Origin: Marinitoga litoralis
GTDB lineage: Bacteria; Thermotogota; Thermotogae; Petrotogales; Petrotogaceae
Assembly (NCBI RefSeq): GCF_016908145.1
Contig: NZ_JAFBDI010000007.1
Span: forward strand, 1 to 64,000
Length of the DNA: 64,000 bases
Direction: 5' to 3'
Each line of letters opens with the position of its first letter. Within the stretch, counting starts at the first letter, position 1. The position numbers were made by a program, and so were the translations under genes. The notes beneath the pieces are model-generated. The model saw only the letters and a program-made list of their open reading frames with translations, had not been told where the DNA came from and did not search any database. Of the stretch, positions 14,322 to 56,558 are shown piece after piece.

Positions 14322-14346
14322 GCTGCCTACGGGCAGCTTATTTTAA
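14315..14346. terminator. Terminator after purB with UACG tetraloop
   Basis: A 13-bp perfect stem, 14315-14327 with 14332-14344, closes a C(UACG)G tetraloop, one of the most stable loops known. It includes the purB stop (14319-14321) and overlaps the last codons of the convergent ABC gene. Confidence 0.85.
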
Positions 14347-15887
14347 ATAGAATTTTCATAAGTTTCATTTTTTGCATTATTAATTGAATCTATGCTCAAT
14401 TTTTCATCAAAAAGATCGTGAAATTCTTTTTCTCCATGTAATACCATTATTAAAATTTTATCCTTAGTTTTTTCTAATATCAACTCAATAATTTTCTTTT
14501 TACTTTTTTCATCTATATTTGCTACTGGTTCATCGAATATATATACATCTCCTTCTTTTTCCAGTGCTATTCCAACCCCTACTTTTTGTTTTTCTCCTGC
14601 TGATAATTTTGATGTTTCTTTTTCTTTTAGTTTTTCTAAATCAAGTTTTTTAAGTATTTCTTCATCTTTTATCAATTCTTTTATTTTTAATTCTGGTAAT
14701 TCTAATGGAGCAGTTAATGATATTACTGTTTGTGGCCTTGTTATTTTTCCATTATCTGGTAATAGATAACCTGATATTATATCTAAAGTTGTTGTTTTTC
14801 CAATTCCATTTTCTCCTACTATTAATATTTTTTTTGATGGTTCTATACTTAATTCTTTTATGTCTAATATATTTTTATTTTCGTAAGATAATTTGATATT
14901 TTCCAATTTTATTTTATTATCTATATCATAATATTTTTTATTCTTTAAATCTAATAAATTTATTATTCTTTCCAATATTTCTGAAAATCTTTGTACTTCA
15001 GGTATTGATTGTATTATTCCGAATAATGAGGATACTGCTCGCCAGAATGAATTTATTATTGCTACAAATCCACCAAAACTTAATTTGCCTATTAATACAA
15101 AATATCCTGCTACTATTAATGAAGTTGCATCTGCAGAATTTCTTATTATATCTCCTAATACCTGTGCTGATTTTATTGCTTTATGACTTTCATAACTGCT
15201 ATTTAAATATTCTTCTAAGTATTTTCTATGTTTAGTCGCACTTTTCTCAAATATGTGGGTAAATATTTTTAATATTTTAAAAGCTTTTAGTGTTTTAGTT
15301 AAATAGTTTAAATATTCTCCTTCTTTTTCTCTTTCAATTGAAGTCTTATCTCTTACTTTTTGACTAACAATAGTTGCTATGTACATTAATGGTGGAACTA
15401 TTATAAATAATATTAATGATGCCTTCCAGGATATATAAAACATAGCGATTGATAATGCTATTTCTGATATTATCATTGATACCATATTTAAAATCATTTC
15501 TATGTATGGGACTATACCTTCTTGAACATCTTTGTGTATTGAATTTACAAAATATCCGAATCCTTTTTTATTAAATTCTTTTAAATCATGATTTAATGTT
15601 TTTTTCAATAATTCTGATTCAAGGTTTAACACTATCTTATTTTCAAATTTTTTTTTCCATAGACTATGTATATAAAATAATATTACAAATGTTATTCCCA
15701 ATCCAAGATAAATAATGCTTAATAATACAAATTTTATAAAATTCATTTTTAATATTGCTTCATCAAATAACCATTTAACCATTAATGGTTGTATTAATCC
15801 TTCAAAAAAACTCAATATACCTGTAAATATTAAAAGTGATATAAATTCCAACCTTTTATTTTTTATTATTTTCAAATATTGCTTCAT
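14343..15887 (-). CDS. ABC exporter, fused membrane and ATPase domains, next to a decayed LanC-like gene
   Basis: About six membrane helices (residues 1-300; one region is ISEIALSIAMFYISWKASL) precede an ATP-binding domain with Walker A GENGIGKTT, signature KLSAGEKQK, Walker B DVYIFDEP and a switch His in MVLHGEK. At 514 residues it is a half-size exporter expected to dimerise. The ATG at 15887 has AAGGAGG at ideal spacing; the frame is open further upstream but that part belongs to the remnant gene. The context suggests export of a lanthipeptide; this is inference. Confidence 0.85.
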   Translation of the reverse strand: MKQYLKIIKNKRLEFISLLIFTGILSFFEGLIQPLMVKWLFDEAILKMNFIKFVLLSIIYLGLGITFVILFYIHSLWKKKFENKIVLNLESELLKKTLNHDLKEFNKKGFGYFVNSIHKDVQEGIVPYIEMILNMVSMIISEIALSIAMFYISWKASLILFIIVPPLMYIATIVSQKVRDKTSIEREKEGEYLNYLTKTLKAFKILKIFTHIFEKSATKHRKYLEEYLNSSYESHKAIKSAQVLGDIIRNSADATSLIVAGYFVLIGKLSFGGFVAIINSFWRAVSSLFGIIQSIPEVQRFSEILERIINLLDLKNKKYYDIDNKIKLENIKLSYENKNILDIKELSIEPSKKILIVGENGIGKTTTLDIISGYLLPDNGKITRPQTVISLTAPLELPELKIKELIKDEEILKKLDLEKLKEKETSKLSAGEKQKVGVGIALEKEGDVYIFDEPVANIDEKSKKKIIELILEKTKDKILIMVLHGEKEFHDLFDEKLSIDSINNAKNETYENSI

Positions 15888-16272
15888 ATTATCCTCCTTC
15901 CAATGAATTTTATTATACATATCAAGCATTAAATCATCAAAGTGATCATTAATTATTCTGTTAAGGACATATAATACGCCTGCAACTCCAGTTCCAAAAT
16001 CACACGAAATTCTTAATCCCCTTTCTACTAAACAGCAAAAACATTTTTATTATTAAAATTATATTTTATATTTGAGTTCTTTGCAGGGTTAAATATATGC
16101 ATATTTAAAAATCCATCTAATTGATTACTTAAAGGTGAAAATAATCATCTTTTTTACTAAACAATATAATATCGAATAAAGTATCAATTATTCCAGATAC
16201 TCCGAACAAATATCCTGGTAAAACAACATATTTTCTTTTTAAATCATTTAAAAGTTCATCAAAAATATATTT
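15888..16272 (-). pseudogene. Remnant of a LanC-like lanthipeptide synthetase domain
   Basis: Minus-strand translation gives protein-like pieces in different frames. KYVVLPGYLFGVSGIIDTLF ends at a stop near 16142, and ERGLRISCDFGTGVAGVLYV runs from about 16025 to the ABC gene, in whose frame it continues without a stop. Both resemble the glycine-rich repeats of LanC-like alpha/alpha toroid domains (…GVSGI…, …FGTGVAGV…). At least one frameshift and stops (TAGTAG near 16027-16032) separate them. No zinc ligands or kinase part remain. The family call rests on the motifs and the exporter next door. Confidence 0.5.
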
Positions 16273-16646
16273 ATATATAAAGCAATAAATATAATTTTAG
16301 ATTTTAATTTATAATAATTTTATCAAAAAAAAAAATCAACTACATTAATGTAAAATCGATGTAAATGTTTATTTTCTTAAATTTAATAAATTTACAGTTT
16401 TATCAAATCATTTGATACAATTTTATTGTTAATTTTTTGTTATATATTTTATTAATATAATGAAATCAATATATTTTACTAAAAGAGATATAAAAATTAA
16501 TATTTTAGATGTGGGAAAAAGAAGTATATTTTTTATTTGATAAAGAAGATTTTTGTGAAGGATTTATCATATATAAGTTTTGAATAAAAAATATTTTTTG
16601 AATTCTTGAATATTGTTTTTTACAAAAAAATCATCGCCAAGTTAAA
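16273..16646. other. Intergenic region with a duplicated upstream element (copy R1)
   Basis: This AT-rich stretch holds an element at 16313-16444 that resembles 54378-54517. It contains the perfect palindrome TACATTAATGTA (16341-16352) and the dyad TATCAAATCATTTGATA (16401-16417). A 24-codon plus-strand frame at 16509-16583 (starts MWEKEVYF) has no ribosome site and was not called a gene. The rest is featureless up to the ispE terminator. Confidence 0.6.
16313..16444 (-). repeat. Element R1, diverged copy of R2 (54378-54517)
   Basis: It shares AATAATTTTATC plus an A-tract, the TACATT-ATGTAAA block, TAATAAATTTACA, and TGTTAATTTTTTGTTATA with R2 in the same order and spacing. Both copies lie on the upstream side (minus strand) of a peptide-export locus and downstream of an unrelated gene's terminator. 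By eye it is roughly 70-75 % alike. Confidence 0.65.
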
Positions 16647-45708: not shown

Positions 45709-46674
45709 TTAAGATATAAATTTAAAAGAATTAAAGTTGAAATCAAAAGTATATAATCCAGAAATTAATGACAATGTTAGAGTATAAGTATATACAGCGA
45801 ATACTCTGTCAATGAAATTAAAATCTGGTGAATCTAGTTTAACTAACTCATATGAAACATTATTATCGTTCACATGGACTTTAATATAATGGTAAAAATC
45901 ATGATCAGGATTCTTACCCACCAATTCTGCACCCGCGCCGCCAGTTACCGTATAGGGAACATTTTTCATTTGCCTATGTAATAACCGTGAATATGTCCAA
46001 AAAATATTTGAGTTATATCATAGTTGTTCAGAAGATTTAACAATTCTTCTGCATTAGATAAATTTTTTAATGAATGCCCGATTATTAATATCCTTTCTAG
46101 GATCATATATAGGGACATGCATAAAAACGAAAGTATATTTATAATTTTTAGATTTTTCCAATTCGTCTTTTAACCAATTCATTTGCCATGGATCTAATTC
46201 TTCTTTATTTGAATTATTTAACATTATAAAATAGGAGTTTTTTAAATTGAATGAATAATATAATGGTCCAAATATATCAATATATCTACCAACTCCGCCA
46301 TCTGCGACATCATGATTACCAACTACAGGTAACATAGGTTTATTTAAATTTTTGAGTTGTTTTAAGAAAAAATCATATTTTATAGGGTTACTATCAAAAA
46401 CCATATCTCCTGTATTAATAACAAATTTAACAGAATTATCATTATTTATTTGTTGAATAATTTTATTAAAAGTAGATATAGAGTTTTTGTTATCTCCAAG
46501 AACAACAAAAGTATAATCATCAGAAGTTACATTGTTTTTGACTAAATTAGTATTCTGAAATATCAGATTTTCATCGCTATCTTTTATAAATGGATATGAG
46601 ATTTTAAAAATCGAAATAATTCCTATTTGAAAAATAAATAGTATAAATATTTTTTGTTTATTTAAATTAAGCAT
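45709..46674 (-). pseudogene. Exported metallophosphoesterase, broken by two frameshifts
   Basis: The first part (ATG 46674) has an N-terminal membrane helix, then FVVLGDNKNS, INTGDMVFD, VVGNHDVADG and FVFMHVPIYDP: calcineurin-like metal motifs. Its frame ends at 46054. The next frame carries NLSNAEELLNLLNNYDITQI...FFGHIHGYYIGK, and a third frame (45969 to 45709) the C-terminal beta region (VPYTVTGGAGAELVG). One base at each A-tract (near 46065 and 45972) would restore one protein of about 320 aa. Its C-terminal part uses GGC/GCG codons unlike the neighbourhood. Sequencing error is possible. Confidence 0.7.
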
Positions 46675-46748
46675 AATATTCCAACTCAAAAATTTTTAGT
46701 CAATATATTATAACATGAAAAATATAAAAGTAAAATGAGTTATTTTTA

Positions 46749-46757
46749 TGATATAAT
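46749..46757 (+). promoter_or_regulatory. Extended -10 promoter
   Basis: TGATATAAT, a full TGn-TATAAT, 37 bp before the ATG at 46794. No clear -35. Confidence 0.6.
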
Positions 46758-46793
46758 GTTATGTTAAATTAAAACAGATTGGGGAGGGATAAT

Positions 46794-48380
46794 ATGAAAA
46801 AACTATTTTTATTATTTATGATTTTGCTTATGGTTATTTTATCTTTTTCATCTAATATAGTAAGTATTTCAGATGCAAGACAATTAAAGGATTTACAAAC
46901 TGTAGTTATACGAGGAATAGTTACAGTAGAACCAGGACCTTTTGATGTAAATATTATCTTTTTGCAAGATGAAACTGCTGGTATTAATTTGTATTTTAGA
47001 GGTGGAGAATTTAAAGATGTTAAAAGAGGGGATTTAGTAGAAGCACGTGGTTATATATGGACACATAGAAATAATACCGAACTAGTTTTAGAAAGTGATA
47101 ATAATAGGCATTATTTTAAAATATTATCTAGAAATAATAAATTACCAGAACCATTAGAAATAAAAACCAAAGAAATAGATAATAATGATTATGAAGGATT
47201 ATTAGTTAAAGCAAAAGGTAAAATTGTTGAAATTGATAAATTTGATATGAGGAAAATATATATAGATGATGGTAGTGGAAAAGGTATGGTGTTTATTAGA
47301 GAAAATACAGGAATAAACCCTGCATTATTTAAAGTAGGAATTAATATTGAAGTAATAGGTGTTTTAGGCCAATATATGACTATTCATGAATTATGGCCTA
47401 GGAATATGGAAGATATAATAGTAGATGATTTATTTCCACCAGAAGTTAAAACATATGCAGTAAAAGATAATTCAATTATTGTAGAATTTAATGAACCACT
47501 TAATGAACAAAGTATTATAGCTAATAAGTCTGTTAGAATACTAAAAGGCAATATAACGAATGTTGAATTATTGAGAAATAATACTATACTAAAAATAAAT
47601 TTAGAAACAGTACCGAATGAGTTTAAATTAGTATTAAGAACCATATCAGATAAAAGTGGAAATAAAACAGGTATGATAATAATACCTATGAATAAAATCG
47701 AAGATAGTTATAGTAATAAGATTTTATTTGATAATAATCATGGACAAACAGCTGGAAATGCTGATTGGGTAATTAATGGAGGTTATTCTGATTTTGCAGA
47801 TGCTTCAAAAGAATTAGGTTTAAAAGTTGATGAAATAAAAGAAGATATTGATGAATATATCCTTGAAATGTATAAGATATTAGTTATTCCAGAACCAAAT
47901 AAACCATTTAAAGAAGAAGAAATGTCTGCAATATTGAATTTTGTTAAAAGTGGAGGATCATTATTTATCATTGCTGATCACGGTAATTCAGATAGAAATG
48001 GAAATGGTTGGGATTCTCCAAGAATATTTAATACATTTGTAGAGGAATTTGGATTTAAATTTGTTGGAGATGATTTAGAAGAAGCGCCTTTAAAATATGT
48101 ATATGATCATGAAATTACTCAAGGAATTAAAAATATAGGAGTTTGGAATGGAACTTCTATTGAAATATTAAAAGATAATGTAAAAGTTTTGATTGCCAAC
48201 TCTGAAAATAAACCATATATGGTAGTTACTAATTATGGAAAAGGAAAAGTAGTCGCAATTGGAGATAGTTCACCATTTGATGACGGAACTGGAGATTCAG
48301 GAGATATTTTACATAATGGTTGGCAATGGGGAGATGATGCACAACTTGCAATAAATACAATTAAATATTTAATGAAATAA
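46794..48380 (+). CDS. Exported multidomain protein: two OB-folds, Ig-like domain, GATase-like domain
   Basis: 528 residues with a signal peptide (MKKLFLLFMILLMVILSFSS). Two OB-fold-like segments follow (about 30-110: VVIRGIVTVEPGPFDVNIIFLQD; about 125-200: LLVKAKGKIVEIDKFDMRKIYIDDG). Next is a Big_5/SbsA-like beta domain (PPEVKTYAVKDNSIIVEFNEPL), and last a DUF4350/type-1 GATase-like domain (ILFDNNHGQTAGNADW...SGGSLFIIADHG). No catalytic triad is evident. A role in extracellular polymer binding is a guess. Confidence 0.7.
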   Translation: MKKLFLLFMILLMVILSFSSNIVSISDARQLKDLQTVVIRGIVTVEPGPFDVNIIFLQDETAGINLYFRGGEFKDVKRGDLVEARGYIWTHRNNTELVLESDNNRHYFKILSRNNKLPEPLEIKTKEIDNNDYEGLLVKAKGKIVEIDKFDMRKIYIDDGSGKGMVFIRENTGINPALFKVGINIEVIGVLGQYMTIHELWPRNMEDIIVDDLFPPEVKTYAVKDNSIIVEFNEPLNEQSIIANKSVRILKGNITNVELLRNNTILKINLETVPNEFKLVLRTISDKSGNKTGMIIIPMNKIEDSYSNKILFDNNHGQTAGNADWVINGGYSDFADASKELGLKVDEIKEDIDEYILEMYKILVIPEPNKPFKEEEMSAILNFVKSGGSLFIIADHGNSDRNGNGWDSPRIFNTFVEEFGFKFVGDDLEEAPLKYVYDHEITQGIKNIGVWNGTSIEILKDNVKVLIANSENKPYMVVTNYGKGKVVAIGDSSPFDDGTGDSGDILHNGWQWGDDAQLAINTIKYLMK

Positions 48381-48388
48381 TACATTTA

Positions 48389-48435
48389 ATACATAACTCC
48401 TGGGAATTCCCAGGAGTTATGTATATATTTTATTT
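48389..48435 (+). terminator. Perfect 36-bp palindrome terminator
   Basis: 48389-48406 and 48407-48424 are exact reverse complements (centre GGGAATTCCC), followed by ATATTTTATTT. It ends the exported-protein gene. Confidence 0.75.
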
Positions 48436-48529
48436 AATAATATTGTAATTTATATAAACTTAATTGTTAACAATTGAGTCTTATAATTAATATATGTTGT
48501 GATTTTTTTAATTAATATGGGGTGATAGG

Positions 48530-49663
48530 ATGAAGAAATTACTTATTATTTTATTATTGTTGCCTTTGATTGCATATGCATCTATTACTGTTAATTTGAA
48601 TCAAACAAAAGTTGGTATGATGCAGACATTATTTAATCCAATAGTTTTATCTCAAAAGCCATCAGAAATTTTAGTATATCCAAATCTTGAAAAGATTCAA
48701 TTTGGAAAAATTAATATTGGTAATAGTTATTTTAATGTGATTACAGGGATAAAAAATAATAAAAGGGTTATTATTGTAGATTCGAATAATAATAAAAATT
48801 TGACAGATGATTATACAGATAACTATATATTTGAAAGTCTGGATAATAAAATATATGATTTTACAACAATTAATTACAATTTTGAAGGACAAAATTATGA
48901 ATATACTATTGTATTAGAATATTTTTTAGATAAATTTGGATATTTTGGTATAACAAGAAAAGAAAGTTATGTTGATATTAATGGTAAAAAGTATAAAATG
49001 TTTATTGCAGATACAAACTCTGATGGAATATATGATTTGGAAAACATCATATTGGGTATAGATTTGAATTTTGATTACAAATATGAAAGTAATGAAATAT
49101 TTAGAAAGTTTATTAATATTGATGGAGAGAATTATGAAGTAACAGAAATTTCAAAAAATGGAGAGAGGATTGTTTTTAATAAAACGAATGAAAATATAAT
49201 TAGTGATATTGGAAATAAATTTTCTAAAACTATAAATTTAGGTAATAAGAGAATAGAATTAGAAAGTAATAAAAAGTGGAAAATTATTTTGTTTGCACCA
49301 TTGAACAAAGAATATAATAAGATATTTAAGTATTTAAATGATAATGTTTCTGATAAATTAGAAGTTAAAATTTTACTCTTAGTAAATAAAGAAGAAAAAG
49401 ATAATATAAAAGAAATTATGAAAAAAGAATATTCTAATTTAGAAGTTACTTTAATTGAGGGAATAAATGATTATGAAATTATTCAAGAAAAAATGAAATT
49501 ATTATATCCCCATACAATAATCATATTGAATCAAGATAATACAATAGTATATAAAACTAAAGCGGAAATCTTTGAAGAAGAACCAATATGGAAAATACAA
49601 ATGCCAACTTTAAAAGAAGAATTTAAAATTTTAAGAATTTTTATAGAAAATGTATTGTATTAA
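48530..49663 (+). CDS. Exported protein of unknown function
   Basis: 377 residues with a signal peptide cleaved after AYA (MKKLLIILLLLPLIAYA). The middle has repeated Asp/Asn-rich turns (VDSNNNKNLTDDY, ADTNSDGIYDLE, LNFDYKYESNE) resembling calcium-binding loops. The C-terminal ~120 residues (WKIILFAPLNKEYNKIFKYL...) have an alternating alpha/beta pattern that may be thioredoxin-like, without a CxxC. GGGGTGA precedes the ATG. Confidence 0.6.
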   Translation: MKKLLIILLLLPLIAYASITVNLNQTKVGMMQTLFNPIVLSQKPSEILVYPNLEKIQFGKINIGNSYFNVITGIKNNKRVIIVDSNNNKNLTDDYTDNYIFESLDNKIYDFTTINYNFEGQNYEYTIVLEYFLDKFGYFGITRKESYVDINGKKYKMFIADTNSDGIYDLENIILGIDLNFDYKYESNEIFRKFINIDGENYEVTEISKNGERIVFNKTNENIISDIGNKFSKTINLGNKRIELESNKKWKIILFAPLNKEYNKIFKYLNDNVSDKLEVKILLLVNKEEKDNIKEIMKKEYSNLEVTLIEGINDYEIIQEKMKLLYPHTIIILNQDNTIVYKTKAEIFEEEPIWKIQMPTLKEEFKILRIFIENVLY

Positions 49664-49672
49664 TATTCAATA

Positions 49673-49706
49673 AAAAGTGTCTGATTTTAAATCAGACACT
49701 TTTGTT
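49673..49706 (+). terminator. Terminator after the 377-residue exported protein
   Basis: AAAAGTGTCTGATTT (49673-49687) pairs with AAATCAGACACTTTT (49689-49703); the inner pairs form the loop. Confidence 0.85.
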
Positions 49707-49730
49707 ATAATATTTTATTTATTTTTTATA

Positions 49731-49739
49731 TGATATAAT
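49731..49739 (+). promoter_or_regulatory. Extended -10 just upstream of the AAA/PD-(D/E)XK gene
   Basis: TGATATAAT; the GGAGGTGG ribosome site begins only 7 bp later, so transcripts from here would have a very short leader. Confidence 0.4.
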
Positions 49740-49758
49740 TAAGTTGGAGGTGGAACTG

Positions 49759-51318
49759 ATGAAAAAATTGCCAATAGGAGTTCAAGATTATAAAAAAATA
49801 ATAGAAGGAAATTATGTGTATGTAGATAAAACAAAATATATATATGACCTGATAAGTTCAGAAGTGCCAATATTTTTATCCCGTCCAAGAAGGTTTGGAA
49901 AGAGTTTAACAGTTTCAACATTGTATTATATATTCAAAGGAGAAAAAGAATTATTCAAAGATACATATATATATGACAAATGGGAATTTAAGGAGTATCC
50001 AATAATAAAACTGGACATGTCTGATAACATGCTAACAACATATGAAGATTTTATAGAATCATTAAATGAAAAAATGGAAAAATTATATAAAAGTGAAGAT
50101 ATACTTCCTATAAAAAATAATCTACCCACACAATTTGGAAATTTAATAGAAGAATTAAATAAAAAATATAAAGAAAGAGTAGTAATATTAATAGATGAAT
50201 ATGAAGCGCCAATATTAGAACATTTAAACAACAAAGAAGAAGCAGAGAAAGTAAGAAGATTTCTAAGAGAATTCTATAAAAAAATAAAAACAAAAGATGA
50301 ATACATAAAATTTGTATTCATAACAGGGATAACCAAATTCACAAAAACAGGAGTATTCTCTGCATTAAACAATTTAAACGATATATCATTAAACAAAAAA
50401 TACTCACAGATGTTAGGATATACACAGGAAGAACTCGAAAATTATTTCAACGAACACATAAAAGAAACATCAAAAGAAATGGGAATAAGTGAAGAAGAAT
50501 TATTAAAAGGATTAAAAGAGTATTATAATGGATTTTCATTTGATGGAGAACATTATGTATATAATCCATTCTCAATATTGAAATTCTTTGAAGAAAAAGA
50601 ATTTAAAAATTACTGGTTTGAAAGTGGATCGCCATCATTCTTATACGAATACATAAAAAACAGAAAGATAACCTATGAAGACTTAGTAAAAGACACAGTA
50701 AGTGCAATGGATTTCTCGACAAGAGAAATAGAAGATGCAAATGCAAATATATTCTTCACACAGGCAGGATATTTAACATTTAAAGGGATAAAAAAATTAG
50801 GATTAAAAAAGAAATATATACTTGATTATCCAAACATAGAAGTAAAAAGTAGTTTCTCAAGATTGATATTAGAAGCAAACTATGGATTAAAAGGATTAGA
50901 TGAAGCAGAAAACATAATATATGAAAAAATATACAACAATGATATAAAAGGATTAATAGAAGAAATAAAAAAAGTAATAAGTGCAATACCGTATAATCTA
51001 CATCAAAAAGAAGAAAGATATTATCACTCATTAATATTTGCAATACTGGCAATAGCAGGATTAAATGTAAGAGCAGAAGAAATGACAAATTTAGGAAGAA
51101 GCGATGTAGTATTGGAATTTAATGAAAGTGTATATATCTTTGAAGCAAAACTGGACAAAAGTGCAGAAGAGGCAATAAAACAGATAAAAGAGAAGAAATA
51201 CTATGAAAAATACAAAGGAAAAGAAATATATCTCATAGGAATAAATGTAAATTCAGAAAAAAGGAATATAGAGGATTATATTATTGAAAAAGGCACTTCG
51301 CTTCGCGAAGGGGTTTAG
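49759..51318 (+). CDS. AAA-ATPase-like / PD-(D/E)XK nuclease-superfamily protein (PF09820 + PF08011 type)
   Basis: 519 residues. The N-terminal part reads LPIGVQDYKKIIEGNYVYVDKT and RPRRFGKSLT (the family's P-loop variant), with a Walker B-like VVILIDEYEAP. The C-terminal part has a PD-(D/E)XK core, DVVLEFNESVYIFEAKLD. Members are abundant, fast-changing and often on mobile DNA; role unknown. The ATG at 49759 is 7 bp from GGAGGTGG. Codons for the last residues form a small GC-rich hairpin (51296-51310). Confidence 0.85.
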   Translation: MKKLPIGVQDYKKIIEGNYVYVDKTKYIYDLISSEVPIFLSRPRRFGKSLTVSTLYYIFKGEKELFKDTYIYDKWEFKEYPIIKLDMSDNMLTTYEDFIESLNEKMEKLYKSEDILPIKNNLPTQFGNLIEELNKKYKERVVILIDEYEAPILEHLNNKEEAEKVRRFLREFYKKIKTKDEYIKFVFITGITKFTKTGVFSALNNLNDISLNKKYSQMLGYTQEELENYFNEHIKETSKEMGISEEELLKGLKEYYNGFSFDGEHYVYNPFSILKFFEEKEFKNYWFESGSPSFLYEYIKNRKITYEDLVKDTVSAMDFSTREIEDANANIFFTQAGYLTFKGIKKLGLKKKYILDYPNIEVKSSFSRLILEANYGLKGLDEAENIIYEKIYNNDIKGLIEEIKKVISAIPYNLHQKEERYYHSLIFAILAIAGLNVRAEEMTNLGRSDVVLEFNESVYIFEAKLDKSAEEAIKQIKEKKYYEKYKGKEIYLIGINVNSEKRNIEDYIIEKGTSLREGV

Positions 51319-51330
51319 ATGAAAATGATA

Positions 51331-51361
51331 AATAGACCGCTGTGTTTACCACGGTCTATTT
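51331..51361. terminator. Terminator between the AAA/PD-(D/E)XK gene and the RiPP island
   Basis: AATAGACCG (51331-51339) pairs with CGGTCTATT (51352-51360). The right arm runs into direct repeat A. The terminator beyond pcrA (54551-54572) has the related arms GGCCGC/GCGGCC. Confidence 0.75.
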
Positions 51362-51407
51362 GTTATTCAGTATAACCAATTTTCCAATATTCTACAAGTC
51401 TTTTGGG
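51356..51407. repeat. Direct repeat A: 52-bp copy of the pcrA 3' end
   Basis: Identical over 52 bp to 54572-54623. It contains codons for the pcrA tail (PKRLVEYWKIGYTE and stop, minus strand) plus 7 bp beyond the stop. Here it is not joined to any helicase frame. It marks the left boundary of the peptide island. Confidence 0.92.
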
Positions 51408-51460
51408 GAGTTATACGAAAAATTTCAATCTATTATATGTTCGGAAAGATTTTAAAGTAT

Positions 51461-52654
51461 TTAATTAAAATCCGTTTGAGTTTTTTTAAATTTTTGTTTG
51501 AGAAATAAAAAAGGAATTGAAGATACGATAATGAAAAATCCTGAAATGACAATAGTTAAATTATAACCTACAATCTTATATATATTACCCCATAAAACTC
51601 CACCAAAAATAATGGCTGAACTTTCAAAAAAAGACAATAAAGAAAGCATTAAAGCTCTATTTTCATTTATATTTTTATTAATCAAAGTCATTCTGATAGG
51701 TCCTGTAATTCCTAAAATAATATTATATCCACAATAGAGAATTAAAGATAAAATAATATTTTTTATAAGTGCTGTGGAGATCAATAAAACACCACCTATT
51801 ATTAATGAATAAAAGAAAAGATAATGCTGATTAAACTTTTTAAGTTTTTTTAGTAAATAACTACCTAAAATACTAGAAAAAGTTGTTAAAGTATAAATAT
51901 ATCCCACAATATATGAAATGTTATTATTTAATTTATTTATGAATAAAGGCTGCCAATAAATGAATATGGCATTTATTCCTAATATAAAAACAGTTGATGT
52001 TGTAAATATTGAAAATAAAATTTTGTTTTTATATATTTCAAATAGAGAATTTTTTATATTATTAAATCCAATATAAAAATTTAAATGTTTTTTTCTTTTG
52101 TTAAATTTAAATGATATTTTTGCAAATATTAAGAATATACTCAAAAGAATTATTTTTACAAAAAGGATAAGATAAATTGGATAGTCTACTTTTAAATAAA
52201 ATAAATAACCTCCTATTAAAGAACCTGATATTTTCGAAATTAGACTCCAAATGTTAGTTTTTCTAAAAAAATCATCATATTCCTTAGTTGAATTAGTAAA
52301 AGTTTCAAGTAACCATGCTGTTGATGAGCCAGATAACAAGGCATTTGAAATACCTTCGAGAAAAAAAATGAGAATTAAATAAAATAAAGAATTAGAAGTA
52401 ATAAATAAAATTGTCGAAAATATAGAAAACAAAAAACCCAAAAGAATAGAATTTTTATGTCCATAATAGTCGGCAAAAATACCTGTAGGTATTTCAAATA
52501 AAAGAGTAATTAAAGCTTTGAGAGAAGCCAAATATCCAATCCATTCAGGTCTAATTCCTTTATTTAAAATATAAAGTGTAATAATTGAAAAATATATTCC
52601 TATAGTAAAATTATTGCTAAAAATATAAAAATGCAAAAACTTATTTTTTTTCAT
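51461..52654 (-). CDS. MFS-type exporter of the RiPP island
   Basis: 397 residues, about 12 membrane helices, with the MFS loop FADYYGHKNSILLG (residues ~60-73) and FEIPTGIFADYYG typical of drug/peptide exporters. Its ATG overlaps the radical SAM gene by 4 bp (ATGA), with GGAGG upstream, so the two are translated together. Likely exports the mature peptide or gives self-protection; inferred from position. Confidence 0.8.
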   Translation of the reverse strand: MKKNKFLHFYIFSNNFTIGIYFSIITLYILNKGIRPEWIGYLASLKALITLLFEIPTGIFADYYGHKNSILLGFLFSIFSTILFITSNSLFYLILIFFLEGISNALLSGSSTAWLLETFTNSTKEYDDFFRKTNIWSLISKISGSLIGGYLFYLKVDYPIYLILFVKIILLSIFLIFAKISFKFNKRKKHLNFYIGFNNIKNSLFEIYKNKILFSIFTTSTVFILGINAIFIYWQPLFINKLNNNISYIVGYIYTLTTFSSILGSYLLKKLKKFNQHYLFFYSLIIGGVLLISTALIKNIILSLILYCGYNIILGITGPIRMTLINKNINENRALMLSLLSFFESSAIIFGGVLWGNIYKIVGYNLTIVISGFFIIVSSIPFLFLKQKFKKTQTDFN

Positions 52655-53808
52655 AAAATAAAAGCCTCCGAATGGTAGAAAATTAATTTTTTGGTTATCA
52701 ATTTGTAGAAATCACAAATTTTTTCACGATTTTTTGGAGATAAATTATTTTGTGAAAGATGACAACCGCCTAAACATAATCCTTCTAATTCACAACCATC
52801 ACATTGCTTTAAATTTTCTATCCAAAATTTATTTAATTTATCGATATAATTCTCCCAATTCCAATGTTTATTATTGAATAAATTATTAATATTATCAAGA
52901 TAAATATCTTCGTAAATACATAAACTGATATTTCCATCATTTTGAATACTTACAATTTCACCGTTGTAAGGAGAACAAAAAGCCATTCCTAATTCATTTC
53001 TACTTTTGAACAAATTATAATAAGGTTTCTTCCAATATCCTATTATTTCGATATGATGTGCATTTGCTTTTTTTTCGAATTCTAGTAATATATTAGTTAA
53101 TTTATCTAAATCTGGATCTATTAGTTCAAGCATATCTGGATCAACTCGCAATTTTTTTACATTTAAAATTTTTAATAGTTTTATAAATTCATCTATATTT
53201 AAATCCAAATTTTCTTTAGTTAAAGTCAAAGAAATTACATCTAATTTTATTTTTTCATTATTTAGTTTTTTTATATTTTTAATAATTTTATTAAAAGAAG
53301 GCGTGCCATTTTTGAATATTCTAATTTTATCATGTTCTTGTTTGTTTCCATCCAAACTTATTGCAATAGTAAAATTGTAATCCTTAAAAAACCTTATTAT
53401 ATCATTATTTATATAAGTTAAGTTTGTATTCATAGCATAAGTTATATTAAACTTATTTTTATATTTTGATTCAATATATTTTACTATCTCATTTATAATA
53501 TCGAATTTCAGCAAAGGTTCACCACCAGTAAAACTTACATTTACATTAAATTTGTTATGTTTTTCATATTCAGAAAAAAAATAATCAATAGTTTTTATGG
53601 CTTTAGGAAAATTTAAAATATTATCCGCATTTTTTTGTGTTTTTGAGACAACGCAATATTGGCAATTTAAATTACATTCATCGGATACAAAAAAGCCTAT
53701 GTCTGGTATAATTTTTTTAATTTTTTTTAAGTGATTTTCTGATAACTTTTTAATTAAAATTGATATATAATTATTTTCTTCTATTCCTTCAGGAATTAAA
53801 ATTCCCAT
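52651..53808 (-). CDS. Radical SAM/SPASM peptide maturase, main frame
   Basis: 385 codons from ATG 53808. The radical SAM motif is CNLNCQYC (Cys45, 49, 52); SFTGGEPLL binds SAM. The C-terminal SPASM region has FCSPYNGE, SLCIYED, CDGCELEGLCLGGC and a final CDFYK, enough for two auxiliary [4Fe-4S] clusters. The ATG lacks a good SD and the frame continues upstream without a start up to the frameshift at 53867-53873, so the real enzyme is probably about 440 residues (see the 53851-53972 entry). Maturases of this type form thioether or C-C links in short peptides. Confidence 0.9.
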   Translation of the reverse strand: MGILIPEGIEENNYISILIKKLSENHLKKIKKIIPDIGFFVSDECNLNCQYCVVSKTQKNADNILNFPKAIKTIDYFFSEYEKHNKFNVNVSFTGGEPLLKFDIINEIVKYIESKYKNKFNITYAMNTNLTYINNDIIRFFKDYNFTIAISLDGNKQEHDKIRIFKNGTPSFNKIIKNIKKLNNEKIKLDVISLTLTKENLDLNIDEFIKLLKILNVKKLRVDPDMLELIDPDLDKLTNILLEFEKKANAHHIEIIGYWKKPYYNLFKSRNELGMAFCSPYNGEIVSIQNDGNISLCIYEDIYLDNINNLFNNKHWNWENYIDKLNKFWIENLKQCDGCELEGLCLGGCHLSQNNLSPKNREKICDFYKLITKKLIFYHSEAFIL

Positions 53809-53850
53809 TTCTAATAATTTATTTATAATTTCATAATCTTTTATAAGATG

Positions 53851-53972
53851 TAATTTTTTTAATTCATTTTTTTACAGACTAAAGCATCTCCTATCTTTGG
53901 ATTATAAATTAATATATTATTTATATCAATATTATAATTAATCAAAGATGAAGCTAACTTATAATTACCCAT
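53851..53972 (-). pseudogene. N-terminal part of the radical SAM gene, in another frame
   Basis: ATG 53972 with AAAGGAG-AAGAAA upstream begins MGNYKLASSLINYNIDINNI...PKIGDALVC and hits TAA 37 codons on. Adding one A to the A7 tract (53867-53873) joins it to ...KKNELKKLHLIKDYEIINKLLE and then the main radical SAM frame, giving a smooth 440-residue protein. The N-terminal part would be the usual precursor-recognition region. The interruption may be a real mutation, transcriptional slippage on A7, or a homopolymer sequencing error. Confidence 0.75.
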
Positions 53973-54017
53973 TTTCTTCTCCTTTCATATTTTGATATTG
54001 TTTAATTTTTTAGTTAC

Positions 54018-54051
54018 AATTAAAGAGGCGAATTAATTCGCCTCTTTAATT
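54018..54051 (-). terminator. Perfect 34-bp palindrome between precursor and maturase genes
   Basis: 54018-54034 and 54035-54051 are exact reverse complements (core GAGGCGAATTAATTCGCCTC). It starts 7 bp after the precursor stop. The following U-run is poor, so read-through into the maturase is likely, giving more precursor mRNA than enzyme mRNA. Confidence 0.7.
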
Positions 54052-54057
54052 ATAAAA

Positions 54058-54141
54058 TTAGCATCCACTGCACCATGTAATATTTGTAGAAATCTTTTCT
54101 TTGTCACCTTTTTTTTCAGATACAATTTTTATTTTTATCAT
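54058..54141 (-). CDS. RiPP precursor peptide, 27 residues, C-terminal WCSGC
   Basis: A short frame from ATG 54139-54141 to TAA 54058-54060. The first ~17 residues (MIKIKIVSEKKGDKEK) are charged and leader-like; the last ten (STNITWCSGC... minus leader: ISTNITWCSGC region) hold Ser/Thr, Trp and the only two Cys, spaced CxxC. AAGGGGGGTG lies 4 bp before the ATG, one of the strongest ribosome sites in the window. A hairpin and a radical SAM/SPASM gene follow. Precursor status is inferred from size, core and context; no known family recognised. Confidence 0.75.
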   Translation of the reverse strand: MIKIKIVSEKKGDKEKISTNITWCSGC

Positions 54142-54161
54142 AGACACCCCCCTTTCTATAT

Positions 54162-54167
54162 ATTATA
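54162..54167 (-). promoter_or_regulatory. -10 element of the precursor gene
   Basis: Minus-strand TATAAT (54167-54162) 21 bp before the start codon. The -35 region is occupied by the palindrome at 54178-54191, which suggests an operator. Confidence 0.5.
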
Positions 54168-54177
54168 GTTAAAGTAA

Positions 54178-54209
54178 TTCTGATATCAGAACAAAAATCA
54201 GTCGACTGA
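54178..54209 (-). promoter_or_regulatory. Two adjacent perfect palindromes upstream of the precursor promoter
   Basis: TTCTGATATCAGAA (54178-54191) and TCAGTCGACTGA (54198-54209) are both perfect, with centres 19 bp apart. The first covers the expected -35. They look like operator sites for a dimeric regulator; no regulator gene lies in the island. Confidence 0.55.
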
Positions 54210-54377
54210 AAAAATTAAAATTCTTAATATAATATTACGATAAAATTGTCGATAATCAAAATTTAACTTTTTATAAAAGAATAAAATTGTACTTTTTATC
54301 ACTTTCCAATCTTCAAATATTTAGGATTCATTCTTTTATATTATCCATTAAAGATTTTTTTCACTTATTCAATTCAC

Positions 54378-54517
54378 AATAATTTTATCAAAAAAAAAAA
54401 AAAAAAAATCAATAACATTGATGTAAATTTAAGGTGAAATTTATTTTTCGTAAATCTAATAAATTTACATATTTATTATATCAATTGGTATATTTTTAAT
54501 GTTAATTTTTTGTTATA
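54378..54517 (-). repeat. Element R2, related to R1 (16313-16444)
   Basis: It shares the ordered blocks listed for R1, with a longer A-tract and ATATCAATTGGTATAT in the position of the R1 dyad. It lies about 240 bp upstream of the precursor ATG. Confidence 0.65.
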
Positions 54518-54550
54518 AAATCTATATTATAGAAATTAAAAATAAATAAT

Positions 54551-54572
54551 GGCCGCAAAAACTGCAGCGGCC
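54551..54572 (-). terminator. Terminator of the pcrA operon
   Basis: GGCCGC (54551-54556) pairs with GCGGCC (54567-54572); on the minus strand ATTATTTATTTTT follows. Confidence 0.7.
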
Positions 54573-54623
54573 TATTTGTTATTCAGTATAACCAATTTTC
54601 CAATATTCTACAAGTCTTTTGGG
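54572..54623. repeat. Direct repeat B: 3' end of pcrA
   Basis: The copy within the helicase gene, identical to 51356-51407. The repeat unit covers the last ~14 codons, the stop codon and 7 bp of the downstream region. It marks the right boundary of the island. Confidence 0.92.
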
Positions 54624-56558
54624 AATTTTGTCTGTAAAATCTGGAAGTTTTTGTCTCATATAAAAGGAATTTCCATAATAGGGTTTTGTTGTGCCGGTTA
54701 ATTGCTTAACTATATAAAGCTCGTCTTTTGCCCGGGTTACTGCAACATAGAATAGTCTTTCTTCTTCATCTATTTTCTTTTCTTTTAAAGCCATTCCATT
54801 TGGAAAATCGCCAGGGTTTACAGAAATTATAATAACAACTTTCCATTCAAGCCCTTTTGCTCCATGAACTGTTGTAAGTGTAATCTTTTCAGTTTTCCTA
54901 TCCTTTTCTGCTCCCTGAATTTCTATATTTTCACTTAAAGCTAATTCTTCAAGAAATTTATTAAGATTTTCATATCTCGAGGCAATTTCTGATAATCTTT
55001 CGATATCTAATTTTCTTGAATAAGCATCTTTGAAATTTAATTCAAGATATTCTCTATAGAACTCTAAATAAAGATAATCTATTAAATCCTGTGGGTTTTC
55101 TGTTTCATTTTCATAGAGATACAATATAATATCCTTTAATTTTGGATATTTTTTTAAGTTAATATTTTCAAAAGCATCATATGGTGTTGTATATTCCATC
55201 AAATTAGCATAAAATTCATTTGTAATTTTTGTCATTGTTTTTTGACCAATTCCAGGAAATAATTTTAATACTCTTGACCAAGATATATTATCAAAAGGAT
55301 TATTAATTATTTTTAAAAATGCCATAATATCTTTAATATGTCTTGTTTCTATAAATCTTTTTCCAGATAATAATTTGTAGGAAATTTTATTTGCATCAAG
55401 TTTTTGTTGTAATGTCATAGATAAACTGTGAGAACGATATAATATAGCAATATCTTCTGGTGAAATACCTTCATCGAATTTATTTTCTATTAATTGAACT
55501 ACAAAATCAGCCTGTTCTAATTCATCATATGTTTTTATAATTTTTGGTTTTATATTATATGAAGATCTAAAAGGTTTTAATTTTTTTGGAATAGAATGAG
55601 TAGGTATTAAAAAATTTTCAAGTTCAACAATTTCAGGAACACTCCTGTAATTTGTTTGTATTTTAAATAATTTCACATTATCATGATTTTGAAAATCTTC
55701 AACATTTTCAAATCTAGATCCTCTAAATGAATATATACTTTGAGAATCATCACCAACTACAATTAGATTATTATGAACACTTGATAAAAATTCGACTATT
55801 CTTAACTGAACTAAACTAGTATCCTGAAATTCATCTACTAAGACCCATTTGTATTTTGAAGCAATGTGATTTCTTATCTCTTCATTTTCTTCTAATAATC
55901 TTAAAGTGTAAATTAACATATCATCGTAATCCATAGCATTTATATTTTTTTTCATTTCCAAATAATTCATATATATTTTTTCAATATCATCTTCATAATC
56001 AATTAAATATGAGGCTACATCTAAAATAGCTTCTCTTATTGATTTTAATGTATTTGCAGCGTATCCTATTATTTTTAATATAACTCCCTCATTAGGAATT
56101 TGTTTTGCTTCTTCTTTTGTAAGATTTCCTTTATATTCATTTTTAGCAACTCTCATTACATCTTTCGCATCTTCAGCATCTAAAATAGAAAAATTATTTT
56201 CAAATCCAACTAATTTTGCATATTTTCTAAGCAACATATTACATACATGGTGAAATGTCCCAGCAGTTAAAGAAGATGTATCAATGTTAGTTACATTTCT
56301 AACTCTTTCAATCATCTCTTTTGCAGATGCTCTAGTAAAAGTAACTAACAAAATATTCTCGGGTTTTTCTCCTTGGGACAAAAGATATGCAATTTTATAA
56401 GTAATAACCCGGGTTTTACCTGAACCCGGGCCAGCAATTATTAATGACCTACCATTAGAATTAATTACAGCATCTAATTGTTCTTCATCTAAATCTTCTT
56501 TAATAAATTCTGGAATAGTATATTCACTTTTTTTAATATTAAACACTTTATCTTCCAT
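54579..56558 (-). CDS. UvrD/PcrA/Rep-family DNA helicase
   Basis: 659 residues; superfamily 1A helicase. Q motif region LDEEQLDAV, Walker A GPGSGKT (43-49), motif II VDEFQDTS, motif III VGDDSQSIYSFRGS, motif IV QTNYRS, motif V TVHGAKGLEW, motif VI VAVTRAKDELY. Works in repair and fork restart. The C-terminal tail is shorter than in Bacillus PcrA and its last codons form direct repeat B. GGAGG precedes the ATG; it lies 13 bp after rpoD. Confidence 0.93.
   Translation of the reverse strand: MEDKVFNIKKSEYTIPEFIKEDLDEEQLDAVINSNGRSLIIAGPGSGKTRVITYKIAYLLSQGEKPENILLVTFTRASAKEMIERVRNVTNIDTSSLTAGTFHHVCNMLLRKYAKLVGFENNFSILDAEDAKDVMRVAKNEYKGNLTKEEAKQIPNEGVILKIIGYAANTLKSIREAILDVASYLIDYEDDIEKIYMNYLEMKKNINAMDYDDMLIYTLRLLEENEEIRNHIASKYKWVLVDEFQDTSLVQLRIVEFLSSVHNNLIVVGDDSQSIYSFRGSRFENVEDFQNHDNVKLFKIQTNYRSVPEIVELENFLIPTHSIPKKLKPFRSSYNIKPKIIKTYDELEQADFVVQLIENKFDEGISPEDIAILYRSHSLSMTLQQKLDANKISYKLLSGKRFIETRHIKDIMAFLKIINNPFDNISWSRVLKLFPGIGQKTMTKITNEFYANLMEYTTPYDAFENINLKKYPKLKDIILYLYENETENPQDLIDYLYLEFYREYLELNFKDAYSRKLDIERLSEIASRYENLNKFLEELALSENIEIQGAEKDRKTEKITLTTVHGAKGLEWKVVIIISVNPGDFPNGMALKEKKIDEEERLFYVAVTRAKDELYIVKQLTGTTKPYYGNSFYMRQKLPDFTDKIPKRLVEYWKIGYTE

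Follow-up and report, generated by a model that had tools for sequence, protein, structure and literature searches.

The described systems closest to the locus reported here are the PapA/PapB pair (freyrasin), in which a radical SAM/SPASM maturase has a short Cys-bearing precursor alongside, and, by virtue of a similar radical SAM core, CcpM (TIGR04068) and SCIFF/CteB. PapB needs a Cys followed by an Asp/Glu; when the order was transposed to Asp-to-Cys, it formed no crosslink in vitro (PMC9413430). As regards promoter architecture, the nearest likenesses are Bordetella fim (PMC1891110) and Neisseria nadA (PMC2791445), where a promoter homopolymer or simple repeat differs in length between close relatives; in Bordetella, a one-base change in the promoter tract altered the fimX transcript 3.8-fold (PMC1891110).

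Here we describe a gene cassette in a 64,000-nucleotide stretch of Marinitoga litoralis DNA (the window), whose minus strand encodes a small peptide ending in WCSGC, a radical SAM/SPASM maturase and an MFS transporter. We consider it fairly probable that this is a RiPP cassette, made up of a leader/core precursor, a SPASM maturase and an MFS protein, under a shared and putatively phase-variable promoter. Its features, together with a second copy of the promoter-like element elsewhere in the window, are as follows:

16304-16440, minus strand: second element copy in the window (nhmmer E 4e-20; T11 at 16325-16335)
51352-51412, minus strand: distal direct repeat, a duplicated 3' end of a helicase gene, followed by the presumed ancestral terminator
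51461-52654, minus strand: MFS transporter, presumed exporter (PF07690, 1.8e-24; a G012 homologue in the same place)
52651-53871, minus strand: remainder of the maturase gene, radical SAM/SPASM, in the -1 frame (Pfam, NCBIfam, cysteines)
53859-53972, minus strand: 5' portion of the maturase gene, encoding the beginning of the N-terminal domain, with a stop after 37 codons (aligns with the N-terminus of the intact G012 maturase)
53867-53873, minus strand: A7 tract at the maturase frameshift (read from the sequence; same break in G044)
54014-54055, minus strand: hairpin between the precursor and maturase genes (by folding)
54058-54141, minus strand: precursor peptide gene (ORF of 27 aa, MIKIKIVSEKKGDKEKISTNITWCSGC)
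54145-54157, minus strand: strong Shine-Dalgarno sequence of the precursor, AGAAAGGGGGGTG
54178-54191, minus strand: palindrome TTCTGATATCAGAA, candidate operator, overlapping the -35 of the candidate proximal promoter
54198-54209, minus strand: palindrome TCAGTCGACTGA, candidate operator (from the palindrome count in element copies)
54356-54513, minus strand: promoter-like element copy (nhmmer E 8e-33)
54390-54408, minus strand: T19 tract, the -35/-10 spacer, between TTGATT (54412-54407) and TAAAAT (54387-54382)
54568-54628, minus strand: proximal direct repeat, the native 3' end of a UvrD-like helicase gene (61 bp, 95%)

The precursor carries a KIKIVS leader and a C-terminal end, ITWCSGC, directly followed by the stop codon. 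A close maturase was found in three of 103 Thermotogota genomes (G000, G044 and G012), and a search of the 103 for the pattern T-W-C-x-G-C-stop gave three true cases: the window, G044, which is another species of the genus, and G012, which belongs to another family of the class. TWCKGC in G039 was rejected as a precursor, being a chance frame within another gene, as were the matches in G078 and G079, where TGG stands in place of the stop codon at both sites. In G012, the maturase is intact and 55% identical, and the operon has the same order as in the window, i.e., precursor, hairpin, maturase and MFS gene. Its precursor reads MKIKIISKEIEYSQRMPASITWCSGC, followed by a stop, and shares KIKI(V/I)S and the terminal ITWCSGC-stop with that of the window, while the middle differs. 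Within the last eight codons, the two genes show three synonymous and no non-synonymous differences. A retained leader and end around a variable middle, with synonymous-only change in the end, is what a leader/core precursor would show. Neither precursor has an Asp or Glu in the conserved end or after it.

The first-pass annotation had recognised no known kind of precursor here and had suggested looking for the small ORF beside homologous maturases. Both points were borne out: the precursor matched no NCBIfam or Pfam family (nor did that of G012 match any in NCBIfam), the maturase scored below all cut-offs shown, and in G012 an ORF with the same C-terminus accompanies the homologous maturase. 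A search of a limited collection of papers gave no match to the WCSGC motif. In both the window and G012, a gene-encoded precursor with a conserved core thus lies next to a modifying enzyme, the arrangement by which a RiPP is recognised, and on sequence grounds the WCSGC cassette probably represents a new RiPP family, real but present in few genomes. The candidate RiPP system proposed earlier therefore stands in that the precursor/maturase pair recurs, but the maturase is frameshifted here, and the WCSGC precursor lineages are two independent ones only. As a side observation, WCSGC (window 54058-54072) resembles the thioredoxin-type WCxxC active-site motif.

The gene order read earlier from the minus strand (an ORF with a strong Shine-Dalgarno sequence, a palindrome, a SPASM-type radical SAM gene and a coupled MFS gene) was found as described, except that the maturase gene is split over two frames. 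Its start at 53972 is preceded by a good Shine-Dalgarno sequence, and the frame breaks in the context TGT-A7-TG, with a stop just after. In the -1 frame, the first ATG lies at 53808, and no ATG, GTG or TTG occurs earlier. The frame from there (52651-53808) matches PF04055 (1.5e-17, Pfam) and has a SPASM domain above cut-off; within this 385-aa frame, the CxxxCxxC of radical SAM enzymes (Cys45/49/52) and seven SPASM cysteines (278, 297, 336, 339, 345, 349 and 365) are present. When the 385-aa frame was modelled by itself, the predicted structure reached a pLDDT of 48 and was discarded. The MFS gene overlaps the maturase stop, and the two halves of the maturase align with the intact G012 homologue on either side of the break. 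The frameshift is identical in G044, whose cassette differs from that of the window by one T; no other indel occurs across the cassette, which argues against a sequencing error, although the two genomes may share a systematic miscall.

The cassette also bears the marks of an insertion and of a recent exchange. The two direct repeats bracket it at a spacing of 3216 bp, corresponding to an insertion of ~3.2 kb, and G041 presents the empty site, in that its helicase end continues into the sequence found here past the distal repeat. No integrase gene was seen between the repeats. Elsewhere, three cassettes that bear the promoter-like element, L088 (G039), L081 (G044) and L101 (G041), adjoin a TPP riboswitch, and each is surrounded by an imperfect repeat of 115-377 bp, with part of the riboswitch duplicated across the cassette; a fourth, L110, has a 59-bp repeat. 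Such repeat-flanked cassettes could have arisen by single-crossover integration of a circle carrying short host DNA. As for exchange, ~8 kb of the window (~46500-54940) is near-identical to G044 (contig C22, L033), while the flanks differ by ~10%, indicating that the cassette region was recently exchanged and that two species hold one allele. Immediately downstream, and convergent, lies a gene of an AAA-ATPase-like/PD-(D/E)XK family (49744-51318), and the same family follows the element loci L091 and L092.

These observations bear on whether the cassette is simply a pseudogene decaying in this lineage, without reversible control and with the frameshift a plain loss. We regard this as possible but doubtful. 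The frameshift does fall in the N-terminal domain and is shared by descent in two species, and a genome this rich in AT has many A7 runs; yet the rest of the cassette is intact and was recently exchanged as a unit, and a single base added at A7 would restore the maturase frame.

Upstream of the precursor lies a copy of a ~155-bp promoter-like element that is present in all seven genomes of the genus. A profile search gave 46 matches in loci fetched from these genomes (the strongest of a BLAST search, with downstream genes assigned by a simple script); slightly fewer of these are distinct and complete copies, because L100 overlaps L101 and the L106 match is cut by the locus end. The consensus reads ...GTAAATTTATtnAATTTa... 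TTnTTGA (T)n G(A/C)TAAAATtATtgTgAATTgAATAAGTgAAAA, and in most copies a homopolymer separates -35-like and -10-like hexamers, defined by consensus only; this is clearest in G042, G043, G039 and G052. Among the copies of G042 and G043 are ones with a clear -35 hexamer (TTGACA/TTGACT) and a spacer of 16-18 nt. Downstream of the element we found short Cys-bearing ORFs with SPASM maturases, a C39 peptidase and ABC exporters, as well as uberolysin-type circular bacteriocins and secreted proteins of unknown function; the second copy in the window precedes an ABC transporter gene (14343-15929; PF00664, PF00005). The association is partial in both directions: the element cannot be recognised at many SPASM loci of the genus, and the genes behind some of its copies have no known tie to peptides. 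The element matched nothing among plasmid and phage records. We also considered a CRISPR leader and rejected it, as ordinary short ORFs and operons fill the downstream stretches inspected, in which no direct-repeat array was seen.

Between the element and the first gene, palindromes of at least 10 bp with at least 4 G/C occur in 19 of the 46 copies (1.8 expected), and CTGN4CAG or CAGN4CTG occurs in 19 copies (0.3 expected); the copies being related, these are not 46 independent trials. The palindromes look like operators. In the window, one of them falls on a candidate proximal promoter (54189-54162). RNA structure in the 5' UTR found no support (z = +1.7), and Rfam matches near the operon were below gathering score only and hence uninformative.

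The tract within the element varies in length. T-runs range from 4 to 21 across the element copies, apart from a T82 in G041, these lengths being taken from assemblies, which are error-prone at long homopolymers; those of the visibly noisy G041 were set aside because its paired loci show many homopolymer indels and no substitutions. Three near-identical cassette pairs differ by one T each, at 19/20, 17/16 and 19/18: the first is the window, with its 19-nt spacer, and its G044 counterpart (T20), and the last comprises two paralogues in the sister genus (G052). The T-tracts of the two element copies are the only A or T homopolymers of at least 10 in the 64 kb of the window. Moreover, T9-G(A/C)TAAAAT occurs at 34 sites in the seven genomes, as against none in a reversed control. 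In the closed genome G039, three of the five T-runs of at least 12 are element copies; the fourth reads TTGACTTC-T14-GATATAAT, a pattern that the fifth (TTGACTTTTC-T14-ATAATTAT) follows less clearly. In the sister genus, the element has diverged to AATAGTTGA-T18..23-G(A/C)TATAAT and precedes a circular bacteriocin (57 bits, cut-off 30.7), radical SAM maturases and loci that start with a Cys-protease-like gene. That the plan of the element is kept while its sequence has diverged argues for function.

An equally doubtful, though conceivable, reading is that the element serves as a conserved module, either a promoter or bent DNA, in which the length of the tract is subject to neutral drift and switches nothing. 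In its favour, the lengths vary widely (4-21) and some copies have no clear -35 at 16-18 nt. It sits less well with a tract placed exactly between hexamer-like sequences in two genera whose elements have diverged, or with the 3.8-fold effect of a single tract base on fimX in Bordetella (PMC1891110). Set against the Bordetella and Neisseria cases, which concern surface structures of pathogens, the present element family stands before many RiPP/bacteriocin cassettes in Thermotogota, and the poly-T is itself the spacer. On the reading of a phase-variable promoter, the WCSGC cassette is probably silent at present in this strain, since its 19-nt spacer is off the 17-nt optimum and its maturase is out of frame.

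Turning to the enzyme, the window maturase fell below every NCBIfam cut-off shown. PapB (NF047865) was the best match, at 153.6 bits for the window and 153.3 for G012 (cut-off 340). CcpM reached 141.1 of 500 bits, SCIFF (TIGR03974) 100 of 425, and RumMC, a maturase of sactipeptides, whose links join a Cys sulfur to an alpha-carbon, 84 of 720. As regards a possible RRE domain for leader recognition, the maturases have a conserved N-terminal domain, and the alignment of the CcpM model to the G012 enzyme begins at its N-terminus, but Pfam is blank over the N-terminal region in the window. The nearest solved sequences are 8VPO and 5WGG; the latter, entered in the database as a radical SAM domain protein, we take to be CteB. 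CcpM and SCIFF/CteB differ further from the present system in that the window precursor is not Cys-rich: it has two Cys, as opposed to the six in ~45 residues of SCIFF. The maturase appears to belong to a subfamily that has no name as yet and lies close to PapB and CcpM. The G039 and G080 maturases, at 29 and 26% identity to that of G012, were set aside as different systems. Viral contigs held no relatives, plasmid and phage collections held distant maturases only (<40% identity), and the only match in a single scan of genome contigs was a 23%-identical Lachnospiraceae stretch.

The top rank of PapB raises the possibility that the product is an ordinary PapB-type ranthipeptide, which we hold to be unlikely. 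The score is less than half the cut-off (153 against 340 bits), the two Cys of the precursor lie at its extreme C-terminus, and there is no Cys-X3-Asp/Glu motif; from the core onwards the peptide carries no acidic side chain, and the C-terminal carboxylate is the only acidic group. Since the transposed Asp-to-Cys order was not crosslinked by PapB (PMC9413430), its exact chemistry is improbable on ITWCSGC.

The hairpin between the precursor and maturase genes (54055-54014) has 19 bp and a predicted energy of -24.3 kcal/mol (z = -7.8 against shuffles), and a hairpin of unrelated sequence occupies the same place in G012 (z = -6.4). It has no strong T-tail and was not called by a terminator scan; a partial terminator or processing site is its probable role. 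A short Trp/Cys ORF directly followed by a stable hairpin could suggest a regulatory leader peptide with an attenuator instead of a RiPP precursor, but this is very improbable given that KIKI(V/I)S and ITWCSGC are kept in a distant genome with a synonymous-only end and beside a homologue of peptide maturases, that the operon holds no amino-acid biosynthesis gene, and that the hairpin has neither a strong T-tail nor a call in the terminator scan.

If the locus is indeed a RiPP cassette with a leader/core precursor, we envisage that it arrived behind the helicase gene as a repeat-flanked insert. Transcription would probably start at a promoter type common to many RiPP/bacteriocin cassettes of the genus, and gain or loss of bases in the T-run spacer would tune or switch each cassette individually by phase variation. 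The KIKI(V/I)S leader would most likely dock on the N-terminal domain of the maturase, which would introduce one or two links into ITWCSGC; as a first guess, these would be thioethers that join Cys24, Cys27 or both to a carbon close by. An unknown protease would then cut off the leader, and the MFS protein would export the product, which may be a bacteriocin-type or signalling peptide.

More tentatively, and as something we find quite possible but short of probable, the lineage as a whole may hedge its bets: unrelated RiPP/bacteriocin cassettes, some moved as repeat-flanked modules, would each sit behind a slipping T-run promoter, such that clones mix cells expressing different peptides. The WCSGC peptide would then be one of the products, bearing a novel crosslink in its WCxxC-like segment. 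Should the T-runs switch, homopolymer phase variation, best known from pathogen surface antigens, would extend to antimicrobial-peptide production in Thermotogota. As it stands, a conserved precursor/maturase pair occurs in two lineages outside every named RiPP family, and the intact G012 maturase makes the pair amenable to simple co-expression. In addition, the signature TTGA, T-run, TAAAAT or TATAAT may point to short-peptide loci of antimicrobial type in these Thermotogota, whose precursors often escape annotation because of their small size.

Several further peptide loci lie behind the element. A second radical SAM-peptide-MFS cassette (L074 in G000:C27 and L077 in G044:C6, with T17 and T16, respectively) encodes a maturase of 419 aa, the peptide MKVLKKRISVKDLKKHIVYSCGSTPYSVFVQKTKCS and an MFS protein. 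A RiPP-like locus after atpC (L040, G039:C1:1488000-1499000) combines a maturase resembling PapB (216 bits) with three precursor paralogues, MSFKII(S/G)LNEP...CDSDPGAGDGGMSCLF..., two of which precede large secreted proteins. More precursor families were observed beside SPASM maturases at L107 (G043:C49), L089 (G040), L103 (G042), L086 (G039) and L109 (G043), and their short Cys-bearing ORFs matched no model where tested. Lastly, uberolysin-family circular bacteriocins above curated cut-offs lie behind the T-tract element at L111 (G043:C16), L082 (G044:C22) and L136 (G052). In G043 and G044, members of this circularin A/uberolysin family (TIGR03651) immediately follow the same element, and in G052 they follow the diverged one; the WCSGC peptide is not of this family and has the upstream element alone in common with it.
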